A stretch of DNA of 9,112 nt from Pseudomonadota bacterium. Its GTDB lineage: Bacteria; Pseudomonadota; Gammaproteobacteria; Steroidobacterales; Steroidobacteraceae. Both the position numbers and the translations under genes were made by a program. This document shows positions 1 through 9,112 of the stretch, piece after piece (the first letter of the stretch is position 1; every line of letters starts with the position of its first letter). The notes under the pieces were generated by a model. That model had not been told where the DNA came from, ran no database searches, and saw only the letters and a program-made list of their open reading frames with translations. The stretch lies in the NCBI GenBank assembly GCA_021815905.1, contig JAKAZP010000079.1, positions 1 to 9,112 on the forward strand. The letters are read 5' to 3'.

Positions 1-347
1 GGGTCCTTCATGATCGGCAGGCCCCACTCCTCGAACTTGTGCACCGTGGCATCGACGTGGCGGGCGATGTCGTAGCCGAGATCCTCGCGCACCAGTCCCA
101 TGAGGTCGTTGCGCGCGTAGCGCACGTGGTCCTCCGGCTGGTTCTCGTTCCAGTGCATGCCCATGTAGCAGTTGATCGCGTACAGGCCCTGGGCGACCGC
201 GCCGCTGCGCTCGATGTTGGCCTTCTCGACGCAGACGATCTTCAGGTCCCGTCCCCAGTAGCGGGATTCGTACGTGGCGCCGCAGCCGCCCATGCCGCCG
301 CCGATGACGAGGATGTCCGAGTCGACGAATACGGTCTTGCGGCTCAT
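1..347 (-). CDS. aprA: Dissimilatory adenylylsulfate (APS) reductase alpha subunit, N-terminal part
   Basis: The flavoprotein catalytic subunit of APS reductase. In sulfur oxidisers it runs in the oxidative direction: sulfite plus AMP gives APS, in the cytoplasm. Only the first 115 residues are in the window; the gene continues past the left edge (the full family is about 620-660 aa). The protein opens MSRKTVFVDSDILVIGG and shows the dinucleotide-binding glycine motif GGGMGG at about residues 16-21. It then has RSGAVAQGLYAINCYMG, characteristic of the AprA FAD domain, and WNENQPEDHVRYARNDLMG. ATG lies at 347-345 and overlaps the aprB stop by 4 bases (ATGA), so translation is probably coupled to aprB, its obligate partner. 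Identity is very secure; the oxidative direction is inferred from aprM and from the tusA/dsrE2 neighbourhood. Confidence 0.96.
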   Translation of the reverse strand, partial: MSRKTVFVDSDILVIGGGMGGCGATYESRYWGRDLKIVCVEKANIERSGAVAQGLYAINCYMGMHWNENQPEDHVRYARNDLMGLVREDLGYDIARHVDATVHKFEEWGLPIMKD

Positions 348-808
348 GCGACCACCCCTTTCCTGAACCGAGTGCGCGCGAGCGTCGGCAGAGCCCCGAC
401 TTTCAGCGCATCGGGCTCGTGGGCGAGCTCCTGCGAGCGGACGGCCGCCTCGCTCGGCGGGGCGTAGTCGGCCGGACCCTTGATCGACCCCCAGGGGGTG
501 GTTCTGATCGGTGAGACGAAATTCTTCTCGCGTCCGTCGCGGAACTTGATGCGCCACGACACCGTGCCCTTCTCCTCCTCGCGCAGCACCCGCACGCTGT
601 GGCCGAGGGGCGCGAAATCCGCGTAGCCGCGGCAGTCGATGGCCTGCTGCGGGCAGGCCTTCACGCACGAGTAGCATTCCCAGCACATGTTGGGCTCGGC
701 GTTGTAGGCGCGCCGGTACTCGGGGTCGATGTGCATGATGTCGGACGGGCAGATGTCGACGCAGTACCCGCAGCCGTCGCAGTTCGTCATGTAGACAAAC
801 GTGGGCAT
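344..808 (-). CDS. aprB: Dissimilatory APS reductase beta (iron-sulfur) subunit
   Basis: Ferredoxin-like subunit that passes electrons between the AprA flavin and the membrane partner. At 154 aa it has the usual family length. Two [4Fe-4S] motifs are visible: C10-x2-C13-x2-C16-x3-C20-P and C42-x2-C45-x2-C48-x3-C52-P, with Trp43 inside the second. The aromatic and Pro-rich C-terminal tail (FVSPIRTTPWGS, then DYAPPSE) is the part that in known AprBA structures wraps around AprA. ATG at 808 is preceded by GAGGAG (plus-strand 817-822), which overlaps the aprM stop codon. The gene sits 12 bases after aprM and overlaps aprA by 4 bases, giving an aprM-aprB-aprA operon. The last 25 or so residues are more basic and variable than the core. 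Confidence 0.97.
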   Translation of the reverse strand: MPTFVYMTNCDGCGYCVDICPSDIMHIDPEYRRAYNAEPNMCWECYSCVKACPQQAIDCRGYADFAPLGHSVRVLREEEKGTVSWRIKFRDGREKNFVSPIRTTPWGSIKGPADYAPPSEAAVRSQELAHEPDALKVGALPTLARTRFRKGVVA

Positions 809-816
809 GGACTTGG

Positions 817-822
817 CTCCTC
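817..822 (-). promoter_or_regulatory. Ribosome binding site of aprB
   Basis: Read on the minus strand this is GAGGAG, eight bases before the aprB ATG. It overlaps the TGA of aprM (823-821). It is the best Shine-Dalgarno in the apr operon and supports the ATG at 808 as the aprB start. It also suggests translational coupling to aprM. Confidence 0.7.
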
Positions 823-1603
823 AGTAATTGCTCGGCTGACGGCGGGCGCTGCCGAAGGTCGCGGGCCGGTCGGCCGGCGCGGGCAGGTTGCGGCGGTAGC
901 CGTTGGCCTGCTCGATGCGCTTCTGAAACGCCGCGGCGGGCTTGTAGAACATGTGGGCGAACTTCGACCAGGGAACGGTCCCGAACAGCACCGTGCTCGA
1001 GAACAGATACAGGCCGAAGAAGACGTTGGCCCAGAGCGCGCTGTCGGCCGCCTGCAAGCGAGCCCAGATCAGGGCGAACGTCGCGCTCGCGAGCAGCGAG
1101 AGGATGAAGAGATCCGCCCGGACCACGCGCAGGCGGGGCTGGCCTTCGGCCGCCACGTCGACCCGTTGCAGGAGCCAGAACCAGTAGCCGCCGATGCAGA
1201 TCAACGCGGCGCCCGCATACCAGAGCTCGGGCAGGATGGCAGGTCCGGGCGCGGCGGCCGTGGGATAGGCGAAGACCATGATGGCCGTGGTCACGACGTA
1301 GAGTACGAAGCCGTACATCGTCGCCAGGTGAGTGAGCCTGCGCAGCGGGTTGCAGAACTCACCGGCCGCAAGCCCCGCGACCACGATGGTATCCAGCGCG
1401 AGCGCCGCGGCTTCCCCGGCGCCGACCCGGCGCGTGGCGCCGGAGCGCACGCGGCGCCGATGGGCGAAGAAGTACCGGGCGCTTCCCTTGTGCGCGAGGT
1501 CGATCAGCGTCCCGCAGATCACCAACACGAACATGACCGCGACATAGGCCTGCTTCGCGAGCGGCGGTATGGCTGCGGGAAGCGCGGCGAACGGATTGAG
1601 CAT
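821..1603 (-). CDS. aprM: APS reductase membrane anchor AprM
   Basis: A polytopic inner-membrane protein thought to link AprBA to the quinone pool in sulfur oxidisers that lack QmoABC. From ATG 1603 it is 260 aa. Hydrophobic stretches lie at about residues 18-36, 66-83, 95-113, 127-146, 164-181 and 189-210, so five or six membrane spans. His92 and His217 (in WSKFAHMFYKP) sit at membrane edges, like histidines that bind heme b in related quinone-reactive subunits; heme binding is an inference. The start is uncertain. A purine-rich GGGGGA lies 7 bases before an in-frame GTG at 1609 and 13 before ATG 1603, so GTG 1609 is a fair alternative. The frame stays open to 1723, but the extra 40 residues are Arg/Pro-rich and not anchor-like. 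Placement directly before aprB gives the aprMBA order of the AprM-type lineage. Confidence 0.88.
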   Translation of the reverse strand: MLNPFAALPAAIPPLAKQAYVAVMFVLVICGTLIDLAHKGSARYFFAHRRRVRSGATRRVGAGEAAALALDTIVVAGLAAGEFCNPLRRLTHLATMYGFVLYVVTTAIMVFAYPTAAAPGPAILPELWYAGAALICIGGYWFWLLQRVDVAAEGQPRLRVVRADLFILSLLASATFALIWARLQAADSALWANVFFGLYLFSSTVLFGTVPWSKFAHMFYKPAAAFQKRIEQANGYRRNLPAPADRPATFGSARRQPSNY

Positions 1604-1721
1604 GAGCACGGGTGGTTCCCCCGGGAAGAGCTGTTTCGTTGTCTTGCGGACCGTCAGTCCACGCCGGGGAGCTGCCGGCCGCAATCCGGGAAAAACTCTA
1701 TCCCCCGGAGCCCGCGCGCGC

Positions 1722-1740
1722 AATGATCGATTCGATCGTT
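1722..1740. repeat. Inverted repeat (operator candidate) in the apr/LysR control region
   Basis: GATCG (1725-1729), a 3-base spacer, then CGATC (1733-1737). The pairing resumes outward with AA (1722-1723) against TT (1739-1740) after one mismatch. It is a near-perfect dyad in the divergent region, so it may bind the adjacent regulator. It does not show the textbook T-N11-A spacing, so the assignment is tentative. Confidence 0.4.
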
Positions 1741-3153: not shown

Positions 3154-4524
3154 TCAATGTCCCCAGGCATATCCGAGCTCGAGGTCGTACTGGTGCATCT
3201 GCAGCGTGATCGTCTGAGTCGGATCGAAGGTATTCGTGCCGCGGATCGTCTTGTTGGCGGCATAGGTGAATGCGACGCTGAACTCGCCCCCCCCGGCGTC
3301 GAGGTGCGTGAACCCGGCCGCGATGTGGTTCTCGATGACGCCCGGGGCGAGGATGTTGAGCGTCACCTGCGAGGAGGGGATCGGCTGCGTCCCGTGGCTC
3401 ACGCCGACGCGTGCGGTCCAGGTCTGATCGACCTGCCAGCTCATGCCGAGCTTGTACACGGTCATGTCGCGCCAGCCGAAGCCCGGTCCCCGGCTGCCGC
3501 CGAGGCAGCTCTGCAGATCCGTGCCCCCGAATCCGGCGGTCGGACAGGCGAACAGGTTCTGGATCGGATTGCCGACGGAGGCGATGCTGTGGTACCAGAT
3601 CCGCTGCGTGTCGAAGCTGACGGCGACGGGCGGGGTCGGCTTGAATGTCACTCCGACGGTCGCGGATGCGGGGATGTCGAACGAGCCGCCGCCGGCGAAC
3701 AGATCCCGGTAGCGGGTGAGCTTCGACATGTACATCTTGGAGGTGTAGGAGGCCGCGAGGGCCCATTGCGCGGCCGGCCGCCACTCGATCCCGACCGACG
3801 CGCCGCCTCCGTAGGACATCTCGTGGCCGTTGTCGGTGAGCGCTGTCGGCAGCTTCGTGCCGCCGCTCGCCGCGAACGCCTCGGTGTACCCGGCGAAGGC
3901 GCCGAGACCGCGCGCCTCGAAGCGCTGCGCGGCGAAGATCAAGGAGGCGCCGATCGCGACGTGCCGGTCCGCGAACGTGCGCGCCAGCGCGACACTCGCG
4001 AACGCCTGCATGAGATCGACCCCGGCGGTGCCCATGCCGTAAGTCCCCGGCAGCGTCATGACCGGCGCGGGTCCCGGTCCATCCGGGTCGAAGGTGGCGC
4101 TGCCGCCGACCCACTTGGTGTTCATGCCGCCGCGCGCGTAGAAGGCGAATCCGAAGCTGTCCCGCGCATCGAGCTGGCGCTTGAGCGCGAAGTAGGGAAT
4201 GGGAAAGAGCTTGTTGGCGCTCGTGAGGCTGTTGGGGCCGATGGTGAAGGCGCCGCCGTTGCCGTTGGCGAGGCTGCTCGATGTCGAGTAGCTGCGGTCG
4301 GGACTGAAGAGCTCGAGTCCGAGCTCGCTGCCGTCGCCGATCAAGCCGATCCCCGCGGGGTTGGTGGCGAGAATCATCGCCTCCGTGGGGTCGGCGCTTC
4401 CGGCGCCTGCGAGCCCCATGCTGTTCACCCCGGCGCCGTCGGTGAAGTACCCGTTCGTGGCTTGCGCGGCGCCCGCGAGCAGCAGCGAGGCCGTGAGCCC
4501 GGTCAAAGCGATGTCGAGCTTCAT
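3154..4524 (-). CDS. FadL/OmpP1/TodX-family outer-membrane transport protein
   Basis: A 456-aa beta-barrel protein of the family that moves hydrophobic molecules across the outer membrane. A Sec signal peptide is clear: MKLDIALTGLTASLLLAGAAQA, probable cleavage before TNGYF. The mature start shows the family pattern (NSMGLAGAGSADPTEAMILATNPAG), where the N-terminus plugs the barrel. Alternating strands with aromatic girdles follow to the end. Two cysteines in a predicted loop (LFACPTAGF, then LQSCLGG) could form a disulfide. The protein ends LGYAWGH; most barrels end in Phe, so the assembly signal is slightly unusual. ATG 4524 is chosen because GGGGG precedes it closely and the signal peptide starts there; a TTG 18 bases earlier is less likely. 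It lies 61 bases downstream of tusA and abuts osmC. The substrate is unknown; elemental sulfur or another hydrophobic sulfur compound is suggested by context. Confidence 0.9.
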   Translation of the reverse strand: MKLDIALTGLTASLLLAGAAQATNGYFTDGAGVNSMGLAGAGSADPTEAMILATNPAGIGLIGDGSELGLELFSPDRSYSTSSSLANGNGGAFTIGPNSLTSANKLFPIPYFALKRQLDARDSFGFAFYARGGMNTKWVGGSATFDPDGPGPAPVMTLPGTYGMGTAGVDLMQAFASVALARTFADRHVAIGASLIFAAQRFEARGLGAFAGYTEAFAASGGTKLPTALTDNGHEMSYGGGASVGIEWRPAAQWALAASYTSKMYMSKLTRYRDLFAGGGSFDIPASATVGVTFKPTPPVAVSFDTQRIWYHSIASVGNPIQNLFACPTAGFGGTDLQSCLGGSRGPGFGWRDMTVYKLGMSWQVDQTWTARVGVSHGTQPIPSSQVTLNILAPGVIENHIAAGFTHLDAGGGEFSVAFTYAANKTIRGTNTFDPTQTITLQMHQYDLELGYAWGH

Positions 4525-4585
4525 GTCTACCCCCAGGTTCAACGTCGCCCTTGTGTCGGGCGATCGGTGTGTCAGCGCCGCATCG

Positions 4586-4813
4586 TCAGCCGCTGCGGCG
4601 CAGCAGGAAGCGCAAGACCTTGCCCTCGGTGGTGGATTCGACGAGCTCGTTGCCCGTGGTGCGGCAGAACGCCTGGAAGTCCTTGACCGCGCCGGGATCG
4701 GTGGCGAGCACCTCGAGGGTGCCCCCCGGCGGCAGGCTCTGCAGCGCCTTCTTCGCCCGCAGGATCGGCAGCGGGCAGTTGAGTCCTTTCGCGTCTAGGG
4801 TTTGATCCGCCAT
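4586..4813 (-). CDS. tusA: TusA-family sulfur carrier protein
   Basis: A 75-aa cytoplasmic sulfur carrier (E. coli TusA has 81 aa) that holds sulfane sulfur as a persulfide. The CPLP motif is at residues 13-16; Cys13 carries the sulfur. It sits in LDAKGLNCPLPILRAKKAL, the family's first strand and helix. Cys50, in the segment DFQAFCRTTGNEL, is a second cysteine whose role is unclear. In sulfur oxidisers TusA passes sulfur between rhodanese, DsrE-type proteins and the sHdr or rDsr systems. The partner dsrE2 lies 33 bases upstream on the same strand. ATG 4813 has no good Shine-Dalgarno; a 5-base hairpin (plus-strand 4823-4836) lies just before it. Two-gene dsrE2-tusA units are well known, often with a rhodanese gene, which is absent here. 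Confidence 0.94.
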   Translation of the reverse strand: MADQTLDAKGLNCPLPILRAKKALQSLPPGGTLEVLATDPGAVKDFQAFCRTTGNELVESTTEGKVLRFLLRRSG

Positions 4814-4846: not shown

Positions 4847-5359
4847 TCAGATGAACAGGTTGATTTCGGAGCGGGTGGCCACTTCGATGTAGGTCGCGGC
4901 TCCCCCGAGCTCGGGCCCTTCGATCATGTCCTTCAGCGTGTACTCGAACAGGTCCATCGTCATCTGGCAGGCGATCATGCGGACCCCCGATTCGGCGGCG
5001 AGCGAGCGCAGCTCCGCGATCGACGCCACGCCCTTCTTCTTCATGAGATTCTTCATCATGGTCGAGGCCGCGGCATCGACGCCGGGAATCATGGAGGCGA
5101 GGTTGGGCATGCCCATGTGCATGCCTCCGAGCGGCATCTTCATCGCCGGGTTGCCGAGCGGGGACAGGTGCAGGTCGAGGTCCTTCTTCAGCAGCGGCAG
5201 GCCGTAGAAGGTGAAGAACATCGTGACATCGAGGCCCATCGCGGCGGCGGTGGTGGCGAGGATGAAGGGTGGGTACGCCCAGTCGAGCGTTCCCTTGGTC
5301 ACGATGATGGACATGCTCTTCGCGCCGGAGCGCTGCTCGAGGCTATCGGAACTCATCAT
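4847..5359 (-). CDS. dsrE2: DsrE2-family sulfur-transfer protein
   Basis: A DsrE/DsrF/DrsH-family protein of 170 aa, partner of TusA in cytoplasmic sulfur trafficking. Visible family marks: the first strand MSIIVTKGTLDWAYPPFILA; a second block VTMFFTFYGLPLLKK; a Met-rich segment at about 73-106 (MKMPLGGMHMGMPNL, then STMMKNLMKKKG) typical of DsrE2; and IACQMTMDLFEY, whose Cys131 is the expected sulfur-binding residue and the only cysteine. The end reads GPELGGAATYIEVATRSEINLFI, as in the family. The start is ATG 5359 or ATG 5356; AGGGGG lies 3 bases before the first and 6 before the second, so 5356 (169 aa) is slightly better. It is the first gene of dsrE2-tusA-fadL-osmC and is driven from the AT-rich region at 5360-5491. 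DsrE2 proteins are often membrane-associated; I see no clear hydrophobic span beyond the moderately apolar first 50 residues. Confidence 0.92.
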   Translation of the reverse strand: MMSSDSLEQRSGAKSMSIIVTKGTLDWAYPPFILATTAAAMGLDVTMFFTFYGLPLLKKDLDLHLSPLGNPAMKMPLGGMHMGMPNLASMIPGVDAAASTMMKNLMKKKGVASIAELRSLAAESGVRMIACQMTMDLFEYTLKDMIEGPELGGAATYIEVATRSEINLFI

Positions 5360-5491
5360 CTGCCCCCTGGTCGTCGCGGGCGAGCCATGATCCGGAACAT
5401 ATCACCATTTTATAATTTATCAAGCGATGATATCTTCGCTCGCTGCTGAGCGCGCGAGATCCGCGCGCGCGGACTTCGTGGAACCTGACAC
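5360..5491. promoter_or_regulatory. Divergent control region between dsrE2 and the HDAC-like gene
   Basis: 132 bases without a gene, AT-rich at 5397-5436. On the plus strand there is a perfect TATAAT at 5411-5416 but only a poor -35 (TGATCC at 5388-5393). It would start the HDAC-lip operon about 70 bases before its ATG. On the minus strand TTGATA (5423-5418) with a 16-base spacer and TATGTT is a fair promoter for dsrE2. The two promoters would overlap, so one bound protein could control both operons. Half-sites ATATCA (5399-5404), TTATCA (5417-5422) and TGATAT (5428-5433) fall on them. Confidence 0.55.
5418..5432. repeat. Inverted repeat TATCA-N5-TGATA (operator candidate)
   Basis: TATCA at 5418-5422 and TGATA at 5428-5432, a perfect 5-base dyad with a 5-base spacer. 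It lies between the TATAAT box and the HDAC-like gene and covers the candidate -35 of dsrE2. A further ATATCA at 5399-5404 pairs with TGATAT at 5428-5433 at longer range. The half-sites match those near the apr/LysR start. Confidence 0.4.
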
Positions 5492-6625
5492 ATGCGATCG
5501 GACCGGCCGGCGGTGTTCATCGGCAGCGAGCCCGGCAGGGCGCCGGGCTTCGGTTGCGATCATCCGCTTTCGATCCCGCGCGTCGCGACCGTGCTGTCGC
5601 TGTGCGAGGCGCTCGGCTGGCTCGGGGCCGGGGAGTTGCGCAGGAGCCCCAGGGCCTCCGAAGAGCAGCTCGCCCGCGTCCACGAGCGCGGCTACATCGC
5701 CGCGCTGCGCGCGGCGGAGGCCGCGGGCGGCGCGAGCATCGAGATGCGCGAGCGTTATGGCATTGGCACGCGCGAGAACCCCGTGTTCCCCGGACTGTTC
5801 GCGCGGGCGGCGGAATCGGTCGGCGGCTCGGTGCTCGCGGCGCAGCTCGCGCTCGAGGGCAGTGTCGCCTTCCATCCGGCCGGCGGCACGCATCACGGGC
5901 GGCCCGGCCGGGCGAGCGGCTTCTGCTACTTCAACGATCCGGTGTTCGCGCTCCGGCGCCTCGGCGAAGCCGGTCTCACGCGGATTCTCTACGTCGATCT
6001 CGATGCGCACCACGGCGATGGGGTGCAGGATGCCGTGCACGACGATGCGCGAATGCACACCCTCTCCATCCACCAGGCGGGCCGCTGGCCGTTCACCGGC
6101 GGCGCGGACGACTTCGGCGGCGGACGCTCGCGCAACTTTCCCGTCCCCGCGGGCTTTCACGACGACGAGCTGCGTTTCCTCATGCGCACCGGCGTGCTGC
6201 CGTACGCGCAGGCGCTGCGGCCCGAGGCGGTGGTGATCACCTGCGGCGCGGACGCGCTCGCCGGCGACCCGCTCGCCGGGCTCATGCTGAGCAACGGAGC
6301 GTTGTGGCAGGCGGTCGGCGAGCTCGTCGCCTTGACGCCCGTGGCGGTCGTTCTCGGGGGCGGTGGCTACAATCCCTGGACGACCGCGCGCTGCTGGACC
6401 GGCCTTTGGGGCGCGCTCAGCGGGCGCAGCCCGCCGCCGGTCCTGCCGCAGGCGGCTCGCCGCGTGCTCGCGGGGCTTTCCTGCGAGCTGATCGATGAGG
6501 ACGCCGTCGATCCGGGCTGGCTGACGACACTCGCGGATCCGCCGCGCAGGGGGCCGGTTCGCGGGCCCGTGCTCGCGCTCGCCCCGGGCCGCGGAAACAT
6601 ACCGGGACTTGCGATTAGCTCATGA
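5492..6625 (+). CDS. Histone-deacetylase/AcuC-family zinc amidohydrolase
   Basis: 377 aa, full length for the class I HDAC/AcuC fold. All catalytic parts are present: His134-His135 (GGTHHGRPG), the general base/acid pair; Gly143-Phe144 lining the acyl tunnel; zinc ligands Asp171 and His173 (DLDAHHGDG) and Asp254 (CGADALAGDP); and Tyr293 in GGGGYNPW, which polarises the amide carbonyl. It should remove an acyl group from lysine or a similar amine. The substrate is not visible. Known relatives include AcuC (acetyl-CoA synthetase deacetylation) and polyamine amidohydrolases. The last 60 residues are a variable tail. ATG 5492 has only a weak GGAA before it. It is the first gene of the lipoate operon and overlaps the next gene by 4 bases (ATGA), so a role in acyl or lipoyl-lysine handling of the carrier protein is an attractive but untested inference. 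Confidence 0.88.
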   Translation: MRSDRPAVFIGSEPGRAPGFGCDHPLSIPRVATVLSLCEALGWLGAGELRRSPRASEEQLARVHERGYIAALRAAEAAGGASIEMRERYGIGTRENPVFPGLFARAAESVGGSVLAAQLALEGSVAFHPAGGTHHGRPGRASGFCYFNDPVFALRRLGEAGLTRILYVDLDAHHGDGVQDAVHDDARMHTLSIHQAGRWPFTGGADDFGGGRSRNFPVPAGFHDDELRFLMRTGVLPYAQALRPEAVVITCGADALAGDPLAGLMLSNGALWQAVGELVALTPVAVVLGGGGYNPWTTARCWTGLWGALSGRSPPPVLPQAARRVLAGLSCELIDEDAVDPGWLTTLADPPRRGPVRGPVLALAPGRGNIPGLAISS

Positions 6626-7710
6626 CCCAAAGTTGGCTCGATCGGCTGAGGACGATAGAAGCGCTCGAGGACGCGCCGCTCGATTCGGCGCTGATCGGCG
6701 ATCTCGAGCGCGCGGGCGCATCGGTCGCGGCGCGACCCATCCGCTTCGCCACGCCCACTTTCAAGGACTATGCGAGCACGGAGCTGCGGGGGTGCTCGCG
6801 CAACAGCTTTCCGGCCTTCTCGATCACCGCAGGCGCCTGCGGACTGAACTGCGATCATTGCCGGGCGAAGATCCTCGAGCCGATGCTGCCGGCCACCTCC
6901 CCGGAGATGCTCGACCGGCGGGTGCGCGAGCTGATCGCCAAGCAGGGGCTGCAGGGATTTCTGCTCTCCGGCGGCTCGAACGCCCGCAACGAGATCCGCT
7001 ATGAGCGGTTCTATCCGGTCCTCGAGCGCTTGAAGCGCGACCACCCGGCGCTCAAGGTCGCGATCCATACCGCGCTCACCGACGAGGCGGGGGCGCGCGC
7101 CATGGAGTCCGCCGGCATCGACACGGCGATGATGGATGTCATCGGCGCACAGGCGACCATCGAGCAGGTCTATCACTTGAGGCGCCCCGTGGCCGACTTC
7201 GAGGCGACGCTCGCGGCGCTGTGCACGACCACCATGGAGGTCGTGCCGCACATCGTCATCGGGCTGCACTACGGGCGCCTCCTCGGTGAGCCGGCGGCGC
7301 TCGAGATCGTGAGCCGGCAGCGCGTCCACGCGCTCGTGCTGGTGGTCGTCATGCCCTTCTATGCGGTGCCCGGAACGTTCGCGGTTCCCGACACGGCCGA
7401 GATCGGCAGGCTCTTCGCCGAGGCCCGTCGACGGCTGTCGGACCGCAACGTGCTGCTCGGTTGTGCCCGGCCCCCCGGGATGCACAAGCGCGTCACCGAC
7501 GCCTACGCCGTGCTCGCGGGGCTCGACGGCATCGCGTTTCCCGCCGACGGAGCGGTCGCCGCGGCCGCGGCCATCGGGCGGCCGTTCGAGCAGCAGCACG
7601 CCTGCTGCTCGATCAAGCTCGGCGCGCCGGCGCCCCGTCCGGATGCGCGCGGGTGCGCGGGGACGGGAGTATCCGCGTCCGCCCATCGCCGGACGGAGGT
7701 CAACACGTGA
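6622..7710 (+). CDS. lipS1: Radical-SAM protein, LipS1-type half of a split lipoyl synthase
   Basis: 362 aa. The radical-SAM cluster motif is C73-x3-C77-x2-C80 (GACGLNCDHC), followed by LLSGGSNARNEI, the glycine-rich SAM-binding strand. It resembles the biotin-synthase-like family to which LipS1 belongs. LipS1 and LipS2 together insert the two sulfurs into protein-bound octanoate and replace the single-chain LipA. Further cysteines at 58, 281 and 328/329 (GCSRN, GCARP, HACCSIKL) could hold the auxiliary sulfur-donating cluster; this is inferred. The last 28 residues, rich in Ala, Pro and Gly, look unconserved. ATG 6622 overlaps the HDAC-like stop; the stop overlaps the next start (GTGA). I assign LipS1 rather than LipS2 by overall pattern; the two names could be swapped. 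The type (radical SAM, lipoate operon) is much surer than the number. Confidence 0.8.
   Translation: MTQSWLDRLRTIEALEDAPLDSALIGDLERAGASVAARPIRFATPTFKDYASTELRGCSRNSFPAFSITAGACGLNCDHCRAKILEPMLPATSPEMLDRRVRELIAKQGLQGFLLSGGSNARNEIRYERFYPVLERLKRDHPALKVAIHTALTDEAGARAMESAGIDTAMMDVIGAQATIEQVYHLRRPVADFEATLAALCTTTMEVVPHIVIGLHYGRLLGEPAALEIVSRQRVHALVLVVVMPFYAVPGTFAVPDTAEIGRLFAEARRRLSDRNVLLGCARPPGMHKRVTDAYAVLAGLDGIAFPADGAVAAAAAIGRPFEQQHACCSIKLGAPAPRPDARGCAGTGVSASAHRRTEVNT
7695..7700 (+). promoter_or_regulatory. Ribosome binding site of the LipS2-type gene
   Basis: GGAGGT, six bases before the GTG at 7707. It is the strongest Shine-Dalgarno in the operon and lies inside the end of the preceding gene. It decides the start: GTG 7707, not the open frame that extends further upstream to 7461. 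Confidence 0.8.
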
Positions 7711-8972
7711 GTTGCCTGAAAAGAGGCGCCGAGGGAGCGGAGGCGGGCGCGACCCCGGGGCTCGATGTCAACGCCTTCGAGCGGATGCAGCCGCGCGCGC
7801 CGCGGCCGACTCCGCCCGAGCGGCGCAATGGCGCGCGGGTCAAGTCCGCCGATCTGCCGCCGGCGGGGGTGTACCTGCCGAACAACAACGTGCTTGCGCC
7901 CCACATGCGCTCGCCGGAATACGTGCAGCTTTCGACCGCCGCCGCCATGACGCTCGGAATCATGCCGGGCAGGATGCACCGGTGCGAGTGCACGCGCTGC
8001 CTGAACCTGCTGCTCACCTATCCGGAGGGCTGTCGCGCCAACTGCGCCTACTGCGGCCTCGCGCGCCATCGGGAGGCCGAGCGCGATTACGCCGATCGCA
8101 ACTTCATCCGGGTCGACTGGCCCGCGGTGCCGGTCGGGCAGATCATCGACATCGTGGCGCGCGATGCGGCGGCGAGCCCGTTCCACCGGATGTGCATCTC
8201 CATGATCACGCATCCGCGCTCGGACGCCGACACCGTCGCCGTGCTCCAGGCCTGGACGCGGCGCATCGACCCGGGCGCGATTCCAGTGTCCATCCTCTCG
8301 AATCCGACCACCATGGAGCGCGCGGACGTGGTTCGCCTGCGCGAGCTCGGAGCCGACATCTTCACGGTGGCGCTCGATGCGGCGACGCCGGCGATCTTCG
8401 ACCGCACCCGCGGCAAAGGCGTGCAGTCCCCGCACAAGTGGAGTCATTACTGGGAGATCCTGCTCATCGCGCGCGAGGTGTTCGGGCCGCAGAAGTTCGG
8501 CGCCCACATCATCATCGGCATGGGCGAGACCGAGCGCGAGGCGCTCGAGCTCGTGCAGCGGCTCGTGGACCTCGGCGGTCACAGTCATCTTTTCTGCTTC
8601 TTCCCCGAGAAGGGCTCGCTCATGGACCACCTGCCGGCGACGCCGCGCGATCAGTGGCGGCGAGTGCAGCTCGCGCGCTATCTCATCGATTACGCCTCGG
8701 TGCGCGTCGAGCAGATGCGTTTCGACGAGCTCGGGCGCGTGGTCGATTTCGCCCTGCCGCGGGCGGAGCTCGACCGGATCATCGATGCGGGCGTCGCCTT
8801 TCGCACTTCCGGGTGCCCGGGGAAGTTTCGCGACGACATCTCGGCGTGCGATCGCCCCTACGGCGATTCCCCGCCGAGCAACATCGCGAGCTATCCGTTC
8901 GCACCGGCCGCCGCGGACGTGAGGCGCATCCGCCGCCAGTTGCGCATCCCCGTGGTGCGGGAGCACTCGTGA
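7707..8972 (+). CDS. lipS2: Radical-SAM protein, LipS2-type half of a split lipoyl synthase
   Basis: 421 aa from GTG 7707. The radical-SAM motif is C109-x3-C113-x2-C116 (EGCRANCAYCGLARH), preceded by C93-x-C95-x2-C98 (HRCECTRC), an extra cysteine set likely to bind an auxiliary [4Fe-4S] cluster. The run STAAAMTLGIMPGRM before it and IRVDWPAV after it match the biotin-synthase-related family that includes LipS2. The end has C370 and C381 (FRTSGCPGKF, then ISACDRPYGD). Residues 1-48 are charged and Pro-rich and may be dispensable. It overlaps both neighbours by 4 bases (GTGA each side), so LipS1, LipS2 and ligase are probably made in step. The reaction is sulfur insertion into octanoyl-lysine on a lipoate-binding protein such as LbpA, which is not in this window. 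LipS1/LipS2 numbering could be reversed. Confidence 0.82.
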   Translation: MSCLKRGAEGAEAGATPGLDVNAFERMQPRAPRPTPPERRNGARVKSADLPPAGVYLPNNNVLAPHMRSPEYVQLSTAAAMTLGIMPGRMHRCECTRCLNLLLTYPEGCRANCAYCGLARHREAERDYADRNFIRVDWPAVPVGQIIDIVARDAAASPFHRMCISMITHPRSDADTVAVLQAWTRRIDPGAIPVSILSNPTTMERADVVRLRELGADIFTVALDAATPAIFDRTRGKGVQSPHKWSHYWEILLIAREVFGPQKFGAHIIIGMGETEREALELVQRLVDLGGHSHLFCFFPEKGSLMDHLPATPRDQWRRVQLARYLIDYASVRVEQMRFDELGRVVDFALPRAELDRIIDAGVAFRTSGCPGKFRDDISACDRPYGDSPPSNIASYPFAPAAADVRRIRRQLRIPVVREHS

Positions 8973-9112
8973 GCCACCGCTTTCGCGTGCTCGCTGCCGG
9001 GATGCGTTCGCGGGTGCGGCAAGGAGCTGCAACGCGCCCTTCAGGCGCGGTCCCCGAATCGGGGCCGGGCGGCGATTCGCTGCGATTCATTCACTTCCAG
9101 CCCGCCGCGCTC
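8969..9112 (+). CDS. Lipoate-protein-ligase-like protein (sLpl type), N-terminal 48 codons
   Basis: GTG 8969 overlaps the preceding stop (GTGA) and the frame is open to the right edge. The visible end, DSLRFIHFQPAAL, matches the LRF-x2-F-x-P-A/S-A-L strand near the N-terminus of LplA/sLpl-type lipoate ligases, and the opening FRVLAAGMRS fits the family's usual first strand. sLpl proteins attach octanoate or lipoate to the LbpA carrier before LipS1/LipS2 act, so this is the gene expected here. Codons 15-32 look wrong in this frame (poor third-position G/C, no family pattern), whereas the +1 frame there encodes KELQRALQAR, a plausible ligase helix. A pair of compensating indels or sequencing errors is possible. 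Assignment rests on about 25 informative residues plus context. Confidence 0.68.
   Translation, partial: MSHRFRVLAAGMRSRVRQGAATRPSGAVPESGPGGDSLRFIHFQPAAL

Follow-up and report, generated by a model that had tools for sequence, protein, structure and literature searches.

An HDAC-fold gene at the head of a lipoate-assembly operon

The window, the whole 9,112-nucleotide stretch of DNA that was analyzed, carries an uninterrupted and complete open reading frame (5492 to 6625, plus strand) for a predicted HDAC-fold (HDLP/AcuC-like) zinc amidohydrolase of 377 amino acids. The assignment rests on the reading frame, alignments, and a match to PF00850 (Hist_deacetyl) over profile positions 1 to 297 of 298 (E value of 6.9e-67), the full-length arginase/deacetylase-fold domain. 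The metal ligands D171, H173, and D254, the His-His dyad H134/H135, and the catalytic tyrosine Y293 align with their counterparts in Aquifex HDLP and are invariant in 27 of 27 aligned sequences (the window protein and 26 relatives), as well as in all 86 rows of the lip-linked clade A described below. The foot-pocket motifs are 130-AGGTHH-135 and 290-GGGY-293. The sequence-only reading had described a complete gene with intact catalytic residues, and this stands: the frame is closed, and every residue that it named is at its position. Judged by these residues, the gene product is an HDAC-fold enzyme like Aquifex HDLP, with its catalytic site intact.

The HDAC stop codon overlaps by 4 bases (ATGA, 6622 to 6625) the start of a gene for a LipS1-type radical SAM lipoyl synthase subunit (6622 to 7710, plus strand). 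LipS1 overlaps a gene for a LipS2-type radical SAM lipoyl synthase subunit (7707 to 8972, plus strand, GTG start at 7707) by 4 bases (GTGA, 7707 to 7710), and LipS2 overlaps by another 4 (GTGA, 8969 to 8972) the start of a lipoate:protein ligase (sLpl) gene that is cut by the window end (8969 to 9112, plus strand). The earlier claim that the HDAC gene is the first of four coupled genes, with a 4-base LipS1 overlap, can thus be read directly in the sequence. The LipS1 gene scores 181 bits against NCBIfam LipS1 (E value of 2.5e-53) and the LipS2 gene 180 bits against NCBIfam LipS2 (E value of 4.7e-53), below the curated cutoffs of 230 and 270, respectively. These cutoffs seem too strict for the group because LipS1 and LipS2 of L060, which belong to a longer sHdr operon, likewise fall below them.

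LipS1, LipS2, and lipoate ligase occur together in the window (the ligase by its start only), and full operons are found in relatives. The 48 codons of sLpl in the window align without gaps with the sLpl starts of six relatives, and a full-length relative of this protein in L060 matches PF21948 (LplA-B_cat). Around residues 15 to 35, the window sLpl is without the NIALDQAM-like stretch common to most relatives, which reflects either a sequence error or real divergence; a frameshift was rejected as the cause of this odd start, as none of the six frames compared fits. Longer relatives extend the operon with sLpl, LipX (glutamine amidotransferase class I), DsrE3, and sHdr genes. LipT is also among their genes, and LbpA (GCV_H) genes are near the operon in some of them; the sHdr and LbpA genes lie past the window end and were found in these longer relatives.

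Upstream of the HDAC gene is a divergent intergenic region of 132 bases with an A+T-rich stretch (5360 to 5491), presumed to be the promoter region of both operons. No common inverted repeat with perfect arms of at least 7 bases was found in this DsrE2-HDAC gap across 18 relatives and the window. Beyond the gap, the minus strand encodes the sulfur carrier protein DsrE2, the divergent neighbor of the HDAC (4847 to 5359, profile match), the sulfur carrier protein TusA (4586 to 4813; PF01206, E value of 9.3e-24), and a FadL/OMPP1-type outer membrane protein (3154 to 4542; PF03349, E value of 9.8e-13). Further along from FadL are an OsmC-like gene, a LysR regulator gene on the plus strand, and then AprM-like, AprB, and AprA genes. 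On the basis of this gene content (DsrE2, TusA, AprA/AprB, and others), the host of the window is judged to be a sulfur oxidizer. The genes for AprA, AprB, and the AprM-like membrane protein (5 to 1723, minus strand) adjoin the LysR gene, which is of the YeiE/CbbR type; AprA, AprB, and AprM are also linked to the HDAC-lip operon in L003 and L008.

Linkage and co-inheritance with LipS1 and LipS2

A collection of species genomes was scanned with a 27-row HDAC alignment, which gave at least 592 stretches and at least 555 confirmed relatives. The best 80 of these at least 555 relatives by similarity to the window HDAC were kept (51 to 74% identity), so the counts describe that clade and not HDACs at large. 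LipS1 is the next downstream marker on the same strand in 65 of these best 80 loci, and the HDAC and LipS1 matches are less than 300 bp apart in 60 of the 65. The other loci among the best 80 have sLpl (four loci) or LbpA (two) on the opposite strand as the downstream marker or no downstream marker (nine, three of which have less than 400 bp of contig left). LipS1 lies inside the locus in 68 of the best 80 and elsewhere in the genome for 10 of the remaining 12; 78 of the 80 genomes carry it, and it was not found in the genomes of L001 and L006. The survey of gene neighborhoods called for by the sequence-only reading, which asked whether the linkage occurs only in this genome, therefore rules out chance linkage or a one-genome oddity.

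The nearest upstream marker is DsrE2 or TusA in 59 of the best 80 of at least 555, and in five rearranged loci (L034, L063, L064, L071, and L073) the HDAC gene is still beside DsrE2/TusA, away from LipS1. By record titles, the HDAC-lip linkage spans the Alpha-, Beta-, and Gammaproteobacteria. Oricola nitratireducens (L052), a cultured sulfur oxidizer, is among the carriers of a clade A HDAC. In L044 (11101 to 12174, PF04143 match) and also in L039, HDAC and LipS1 are separated by an opposite-strand gene for a sulfur transporter of the YeeE/SoxT-type family.

Four genome draws were searched with the window LipS1. The class of Oricola gave 8 LipS1-positive genomes among 289 and the class of G003 gave 21 among 274; at the order level, there were 11 among 150 for G013 and 7 among 78 for G003. 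The class-wide searches scored the best few first-look candidates per genome, and extra copies may be missed. Removal of draw centers and repeats left 41 LipS1-positive genomes. The draw centers G003, G013, and G018, met through the HDAC, were left out of these LipS1-first counts, while G004, G014, G024, and G026, likewise known initially from their HDAC, were counted because the LipS1 draws contained them. A clade A HDAC gene lies beside LipS1 on the same strand within 1.3 kb in 18 of the 41 genomes (the gap is 1.2 kb in G211, G305, and G605 and smaller in the other loci), leaving 23 without it (G793, described below, and 22 more, of which three are alphaproteobacteria); many genomes are MAGs, in which absence may be missing sequence. 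The HDAC gene adjoins LipS1 in 18 of 21 genomes whose LipS1 shares at least 66% identity with that of the window (the misses are G027, G257, and G793) and in 0 of 20 with an identity of at most 59%. Among LipS1-first loci, LipX is visible in 11 of the 15 that have a clade A HDAC and in 1 of the 16 that do not, several loci being cut by contig or region ends. HDLP-type HDACs (E value of ≤1e-50) occur in 17 of the 274 genomes of the class-of-G003 draw (gammaproteobacteria), and 16 of these are LipS1 positive (Fisher P = 1.4e-19 with the center left out and shared ancestry ignored). The 17th genome, G505, has LipS2, LipT, and sLpl on the contig of its HDLP-type HDAC.

The HDAC gene can be missing from an otherwise conserved operon. 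In G793 (L261), with a LipS1 81% identical to that of the window, FadL-TusA-DsrE2 is divergent from LipS1-LipS2-sLpl-LipX-DsrE3-sHdr with exactly the HDAC absent. About 128 bp separate DsrE2 from LipS1 there, with no gene between them, and no HDAC match at an E value of ≤1e-50 was found anywhere in the genome. G027 and G257 have an HDAC of clade C only, and G222 has no match at the same threshold. Within the two class draws, three alphaproteobacterial LipS1-positive genomes (two with clade C only and one with no match at ≤1e-50) and five gammaproteobacterial ones (all with no match at ≤1e-50) are without a clade A or B HDAC. Because G793 keeps the operon with exactly this gene missing, we conclude that the clade A HDAC is accessory and dispensable and that it performs no required assembly step; the 23 of 41 LipS1-positive genomes without it beside LipS1 likewise speak against a core role in assembly. 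The DsrE2-LipS1 gap of L261 (7304 to 7429) contains a perfect 12-base inverted repeat, TTATCACTATTT...AAATAGTGATAA, which is a possible operator; the DsrE2-HDAC gap of the window has a similar A+T-rich stretch without an inverted repeat of this type.

A maximum likelihood tree (quick search, 91 rows, SH-aLRT support and no bootstrap) placed the lip-linked HDACs, including that of the window, in clade A, with 43 rows on one side of a branch supported at 98; after 38 HDACs were added, the clade held 53 rows with a support of 99. Clade B (gammaproteobacteria) has a support of 96, clade C (alphaproteobacteria) is weakly supported (77 and 73), and Aquifex HDLP falls outside clades A, B, and C on a long branch. 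All lip-adjacent HDACs placed in the tree fall in clade A, including 10 of 10 among the added sequences, and 28 of 28 added from LipS1-negative alphaproteobacteria fall in clade C. Whether these HDACs form a clade of their own, a check proposed from the sequence alone, is answered by their separation as clade A (SH-aLRT of 98 to 99) from clades B and C and from ordinary paralogs. In the alphaproteobacterial draw, clade A occurs in LipS1-positive genomes only (five with the center), and all 44 HDLP-type HDACs of LipS1-negative genomes belong to clade C (16 placed earlier and 28 added). G211 and G305 carry both, with A in the lip operon and C elsewhere. Bacteria that live on sulfur as an energy source often carry an HDAC relative of a separate branch within the gene set for the lipoic acid cofactor.

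The other clades have other neighbors. NMT1-type ABC transporter and DUF192 family genes are each found in 12 of 20 clade C loci, while 14 of 16 clade B loci have an aldo/keto reductase family gene and 9 have CbbQ; clade B HDACs are near CO2 fixation genes. The idea that every HDLP-type HDAC is tied to lip genes is refuted by clade C in the 44 LipS1-negative alphaproteobacteria. Clade B was rejected as a member of the lip operon: among 14 LipS1-positive genomes, its HDAC is 8 to 31 kb from LipS1 in 8, about 206 kb away in 1, and on a contig other than that of LipS1 in 5. A second protein with an LplA/B catalytic domain is encoded about 5 kb from the clade B HDAC in 7 of the 16 clade B loci (for example, L202, 8869 to 9945; PF21948, E value of 6.7e-22). 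All 26 genomes examined contain one or more additional PF00850 matches, and the window HDAC was rejected as an ordinary paralog of this sort: 30 paralog loci show 26 to 42% identity in their best matches, and the 11 that were placed fall outside clades A to C.

The HDAC and the lipoyl synthase subunits also share their pattern of divergence. Across 60 loci, distance matrices correlate at 0.64 for HDAC-LipS1, 0.635 for HDAC-LipS2, and 0.65 for LipS1-LipS2, values reached by none of 999 permutations. A paralog control in 24 genomes gave an r of 0.003 with the HDAC and 0.17 with LipS1, where LipS1-LipS2 gave 0.51; this control is weak because paralog types are mixed.

Active site, candidate substrate, and alternative roles

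Part of the text of Graf et al. 2024 (PMC11532494) describes enzymes without an RPP motif as able to have an open foot pocket, and it links cluster 2 enzymes, with XGGLHH and (G/A)GGY foot-pocket motifs, to varied acyl chains. The window HDAC is of the XGG-T-HH/GGGY type and not RPP, and its foot-pocket motif (AGGTHH/GGGY) is, by sequence, of the open kind. Compared with the cluster 2 motifs, GGGY fits, and Thr replaces Leu in 85 of 86 clade A rows. This Thr was considered as a lipoyl marker and rejected; it is common to clade C (19 of 20 rows), which is not lip-linked, and is therefore no mark of lipoyl specificity. Met is found at this position in 16 clade B rows and in HDLP, where Met130 corresponds to Thr133 of the window HDAC. 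HDLP Phe198, a tunnel residue, is replaced by Trp199, with the two residues before it missing, and Trp is found in 85 of 86 clade A rows. E95 (HDLP E92), the rim acid that by HDAC8 work anchors the peptide backbone, does not vary across the 86 clade A rows, whereas 12 of 20 clade C rows have Gly. At the position of HDLP Leu265, which by HDAC10 work is the acidic gatekeeper site of acetylpolyamine deacetylases (HDAC10/ApaH type), the window has Leu261, and all 86 clade A rows have Leu. A polyamine deacetylase was ruled out on this one position, which is not acidic.

Acyl-LbpA emerges as the leading candidate substrate of the clade A HDAC because several points come together: the open-type motif, the AcuC precedent, the invariant rim acid, the sequence of the LbpA lipoyl site, and the requirement of sLpl for free acids. 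In the pre-screen of Bacillus subtilis AcuC, as given in part of PMC11532494, the octanoyl peptide QPKKoct was hydrolyzed most efficiently of those tried, and Gly-Lys was accepted. The lipoyl site is ESGKW (Gly-Lys) in every LbpA match recovered, with seven matches from clade A loci (L077 and L263 come from the same genome); operons that have no clade A HDAC encode LbpAs with ESGKW as well. According to part of PMC10332631, sLpl accepts free octanoate or lipoate only, and acid freed from LbpA could therefore be reused.

We propose that a zinc-dependent lysine deacylase of the HDLP/AcuC kind may have become a dedicated accessory of LipS1/LipS2-sLpl lipoate assembly in sHdr sulfur oxidizers. Its most likely substrate would be the carrier protein LbpA, acylated on the lipoyl-attachment lysine, from which it would hydrolyze unproductive or spent groups (never-sulfurated octanoyl, damaged lipoyl, or acetyl and other short acyl). 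The products would be a free lysine and a free acid, and sLpl could then reload the site, placing an eraser beside the writer. Removal of wrong or spent acyl groups from the cofactor carrier protein appears to be the likeliest job of clade A. A predicted lysine deacylase that acts on LbpA, in editing or recycling, is accordingly the role that we favor, tentatively and at a little under an even chance. The fold, the intact active site, the conserved linkage, the separate clade, and the distance correlation with LipS1/LipS2 are shown by the analysis; what the enzyme acts on, which acyl group it removes, and which way the effect runs in the cell are inferred. It is doubtful that clade A represents the first case of an HDAC-fold enzyme devoted to a lipoyl carrier protein, serving as a zinc-dependent de-octanoylase/delipoylase in the editing and recycling of the LbpA lipoyl arm. 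If this eraser reading is true, then writer (sLpl), maker (LipS1/S2), and eraser would lie in one sulfur-oxidizer operon. Part of PMC10272112 describes reduced lipoic acid and lipoamide as ligands and inhibitors of human HDAC1, 2, 3, 6, 8, and 10, so a reduced lipoyl arm may block the enzyme rather than be cut. Caution over function read from operon company is also advised by SirTM, a sirtuin of the GcvH-L/LplA2 operon that, in the account given in part of PMC4518038, was predicted to be a delipoylase, did not pass the assay for this activity, and turned out to be an ADP-ribosyl transferase.

It is rather unlikely that the HDAC is an AcuC-type regulatory lysine deacetylase whose target is another sulfur oxidation protein (sHdr subunits, DsrE2/TusA, or a CoA synthetase) and not LbpA. 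B. subtilis AcuC acts on AcsA (PMC8556138, in part), and the upstream company noted above, DsrE2 or TusA in 59 of the best 80 of at least 555 loci and DsrE2 in the five rearranged loci, would suit such a target. In typical loci, however, the HDAC gene heads the lip operon, and no acetyltransferase family was found among the 10 window proteins scanned (one has no Pfam match) or among another 30 proteins, all but one of which come from clade A, B, or C loci and which cover the neighbors in part (six have no Pfam match). The enzyme might instead supply precursors, as a lipoamidase that frees lipoate or octanoate for sLpl from housekeeping lipoyl proteins (GcvH and E2). This would suit an sLpl that is without octanoyltransferase activity and takes free precursors only (PMC10332631, in part); those parts of the literature name no source of free octanoate in these cells, and bacterial lipoamidases exist in the sirtuins CobB and SrtN (PMC8556138, in part) and in Lpa (PMC6247088, in part). 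But the eight LipS1-positive genomes of the class draws and G793, all without a clade A or B HDAC, mean that another precursor source must exist, and stripping housekeeping enzymes would cost much, which makes this role unlikely.

A small-molecule amidohydrolase, or a passenger gene unrelated to lipoate, is decidedly unlikely. HDAC-fold dimethoate and propanil hydrolases do exist (PMC11532494, in part), and the differing neighbors of clade C (ABC transporter/DUF192) and clade B (CbbQ and aldo/keto reductase) indicate that the family serves more than one setting, but clade A is one clade with one usual operon position across the Alpha-, Beta-, and Gammaproteobacteria, and its distance correlation with LipS1 is as high as that between LipS1 and LipS2. 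Most improbable is a nonhydrolytic role, either in binding the (dihydro)lipoyl chain, for which the binding of reduced lipoic acid and lipoamide by human HDACs (PMC10272112, in part) could be cited, or in new chemistry on the lipoyl arm, for which SirTM is a precedent (PMC4518038, in part); invariance of the catalytic residues in clade A, Y293 included, argues against it.

Relation to known systems

The genes of the window are those of the LipS1/LipS2-sLpl(AB) assembly of sHdr sulfur oxidizers (Cao 2018; Tanabe 2023), and the longer relatives share LipX, LipT, DsrE3, sHdr, and LbpA genes with known sHdr lipoate assembly. The published lipoate-assembly gene sets, in the passages that list them, comprise lipS1, slpl, lipT, lipS2, lipY, and lipX, and a deacetylase is not among these names. 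A literature search that combined deacetylase, AcuC, or acetoin with lipoate, Hdr, or LbpA returned no paper on an HDAC gene in a lip operon, and "deacetylase" and "AcuC" do not occur in the main texts of PMC10332631, PMC6067878, PMC12423496, and PMC11582611; figures and supplements lie outside this search, so a published gene map may show the gene as an unlabeled or white arrow. Within these limits, the statement that no HDAC-fold enzyme has an assigned role in the pathway is borne out.

SirTM/macrodomain-GcvH-L-LplA2 operons (Rack 2015, in part) likewise place an enzyme of a deacylase fold by a dedicated lipoate ligase and a GcvH-like carrier. SirTM differs from the window HDAC as an NAD-dependent sirtuin and ADP-ribosyl transferase, and LipS1/LipS2 are not named in that part of the source. 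The lipoamidases CobB/SrtN and Lpa remove lipoyl from lysine, which is one activity proposed for clade A, and are absent from this operon. Their folds are unrelated to the HDAC fold. To our knowledge, few bacterial HDAC-fold enzymes have a known physiological role. The role of clade A is directly testable because the clade is well bounded, usually sits in one setting, and has a single obvious candidate substrate. If deacylation of LbpA is true, it would be an unrecognized quality control or recycling step in lipoate-dependent sulfur oxidation and would give the sirtuin lipoamidases a zinc-dependent counterpart; if it is false, the conserved HDAC-lip linkage still needs explaining.

Among HDAC-fold enzymes, HDLP of Aquifex aeolicus (PDB 1c3p/1c3r) is a class I-type bacterial HDAC, and AcuC of B. 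subtilis (acuABC operon) is a class I/cluster 2-type enzyme, a type to which the window HDAC probably belongs. The AcuC system has acuA (acetyltransferase) and acuB, neither of which was found among the window genes scanned; the window HDAC sits instead in the lipoate-assembly operon of a sulfur oxidizer. Close relatives of the window HDAC are named "acetoin utilization protein AcuC" in some sources. The NCBIfam cutoffs exclude all the sulfur-oxidizer copies tried (three of LipS1 and two of LipS2), and automatic annotation may miss such genes. A MAG contig titled Bordetella parapertussis (L050) carries this HDAC and the start of LipS1, and its organism label is probably wrong.
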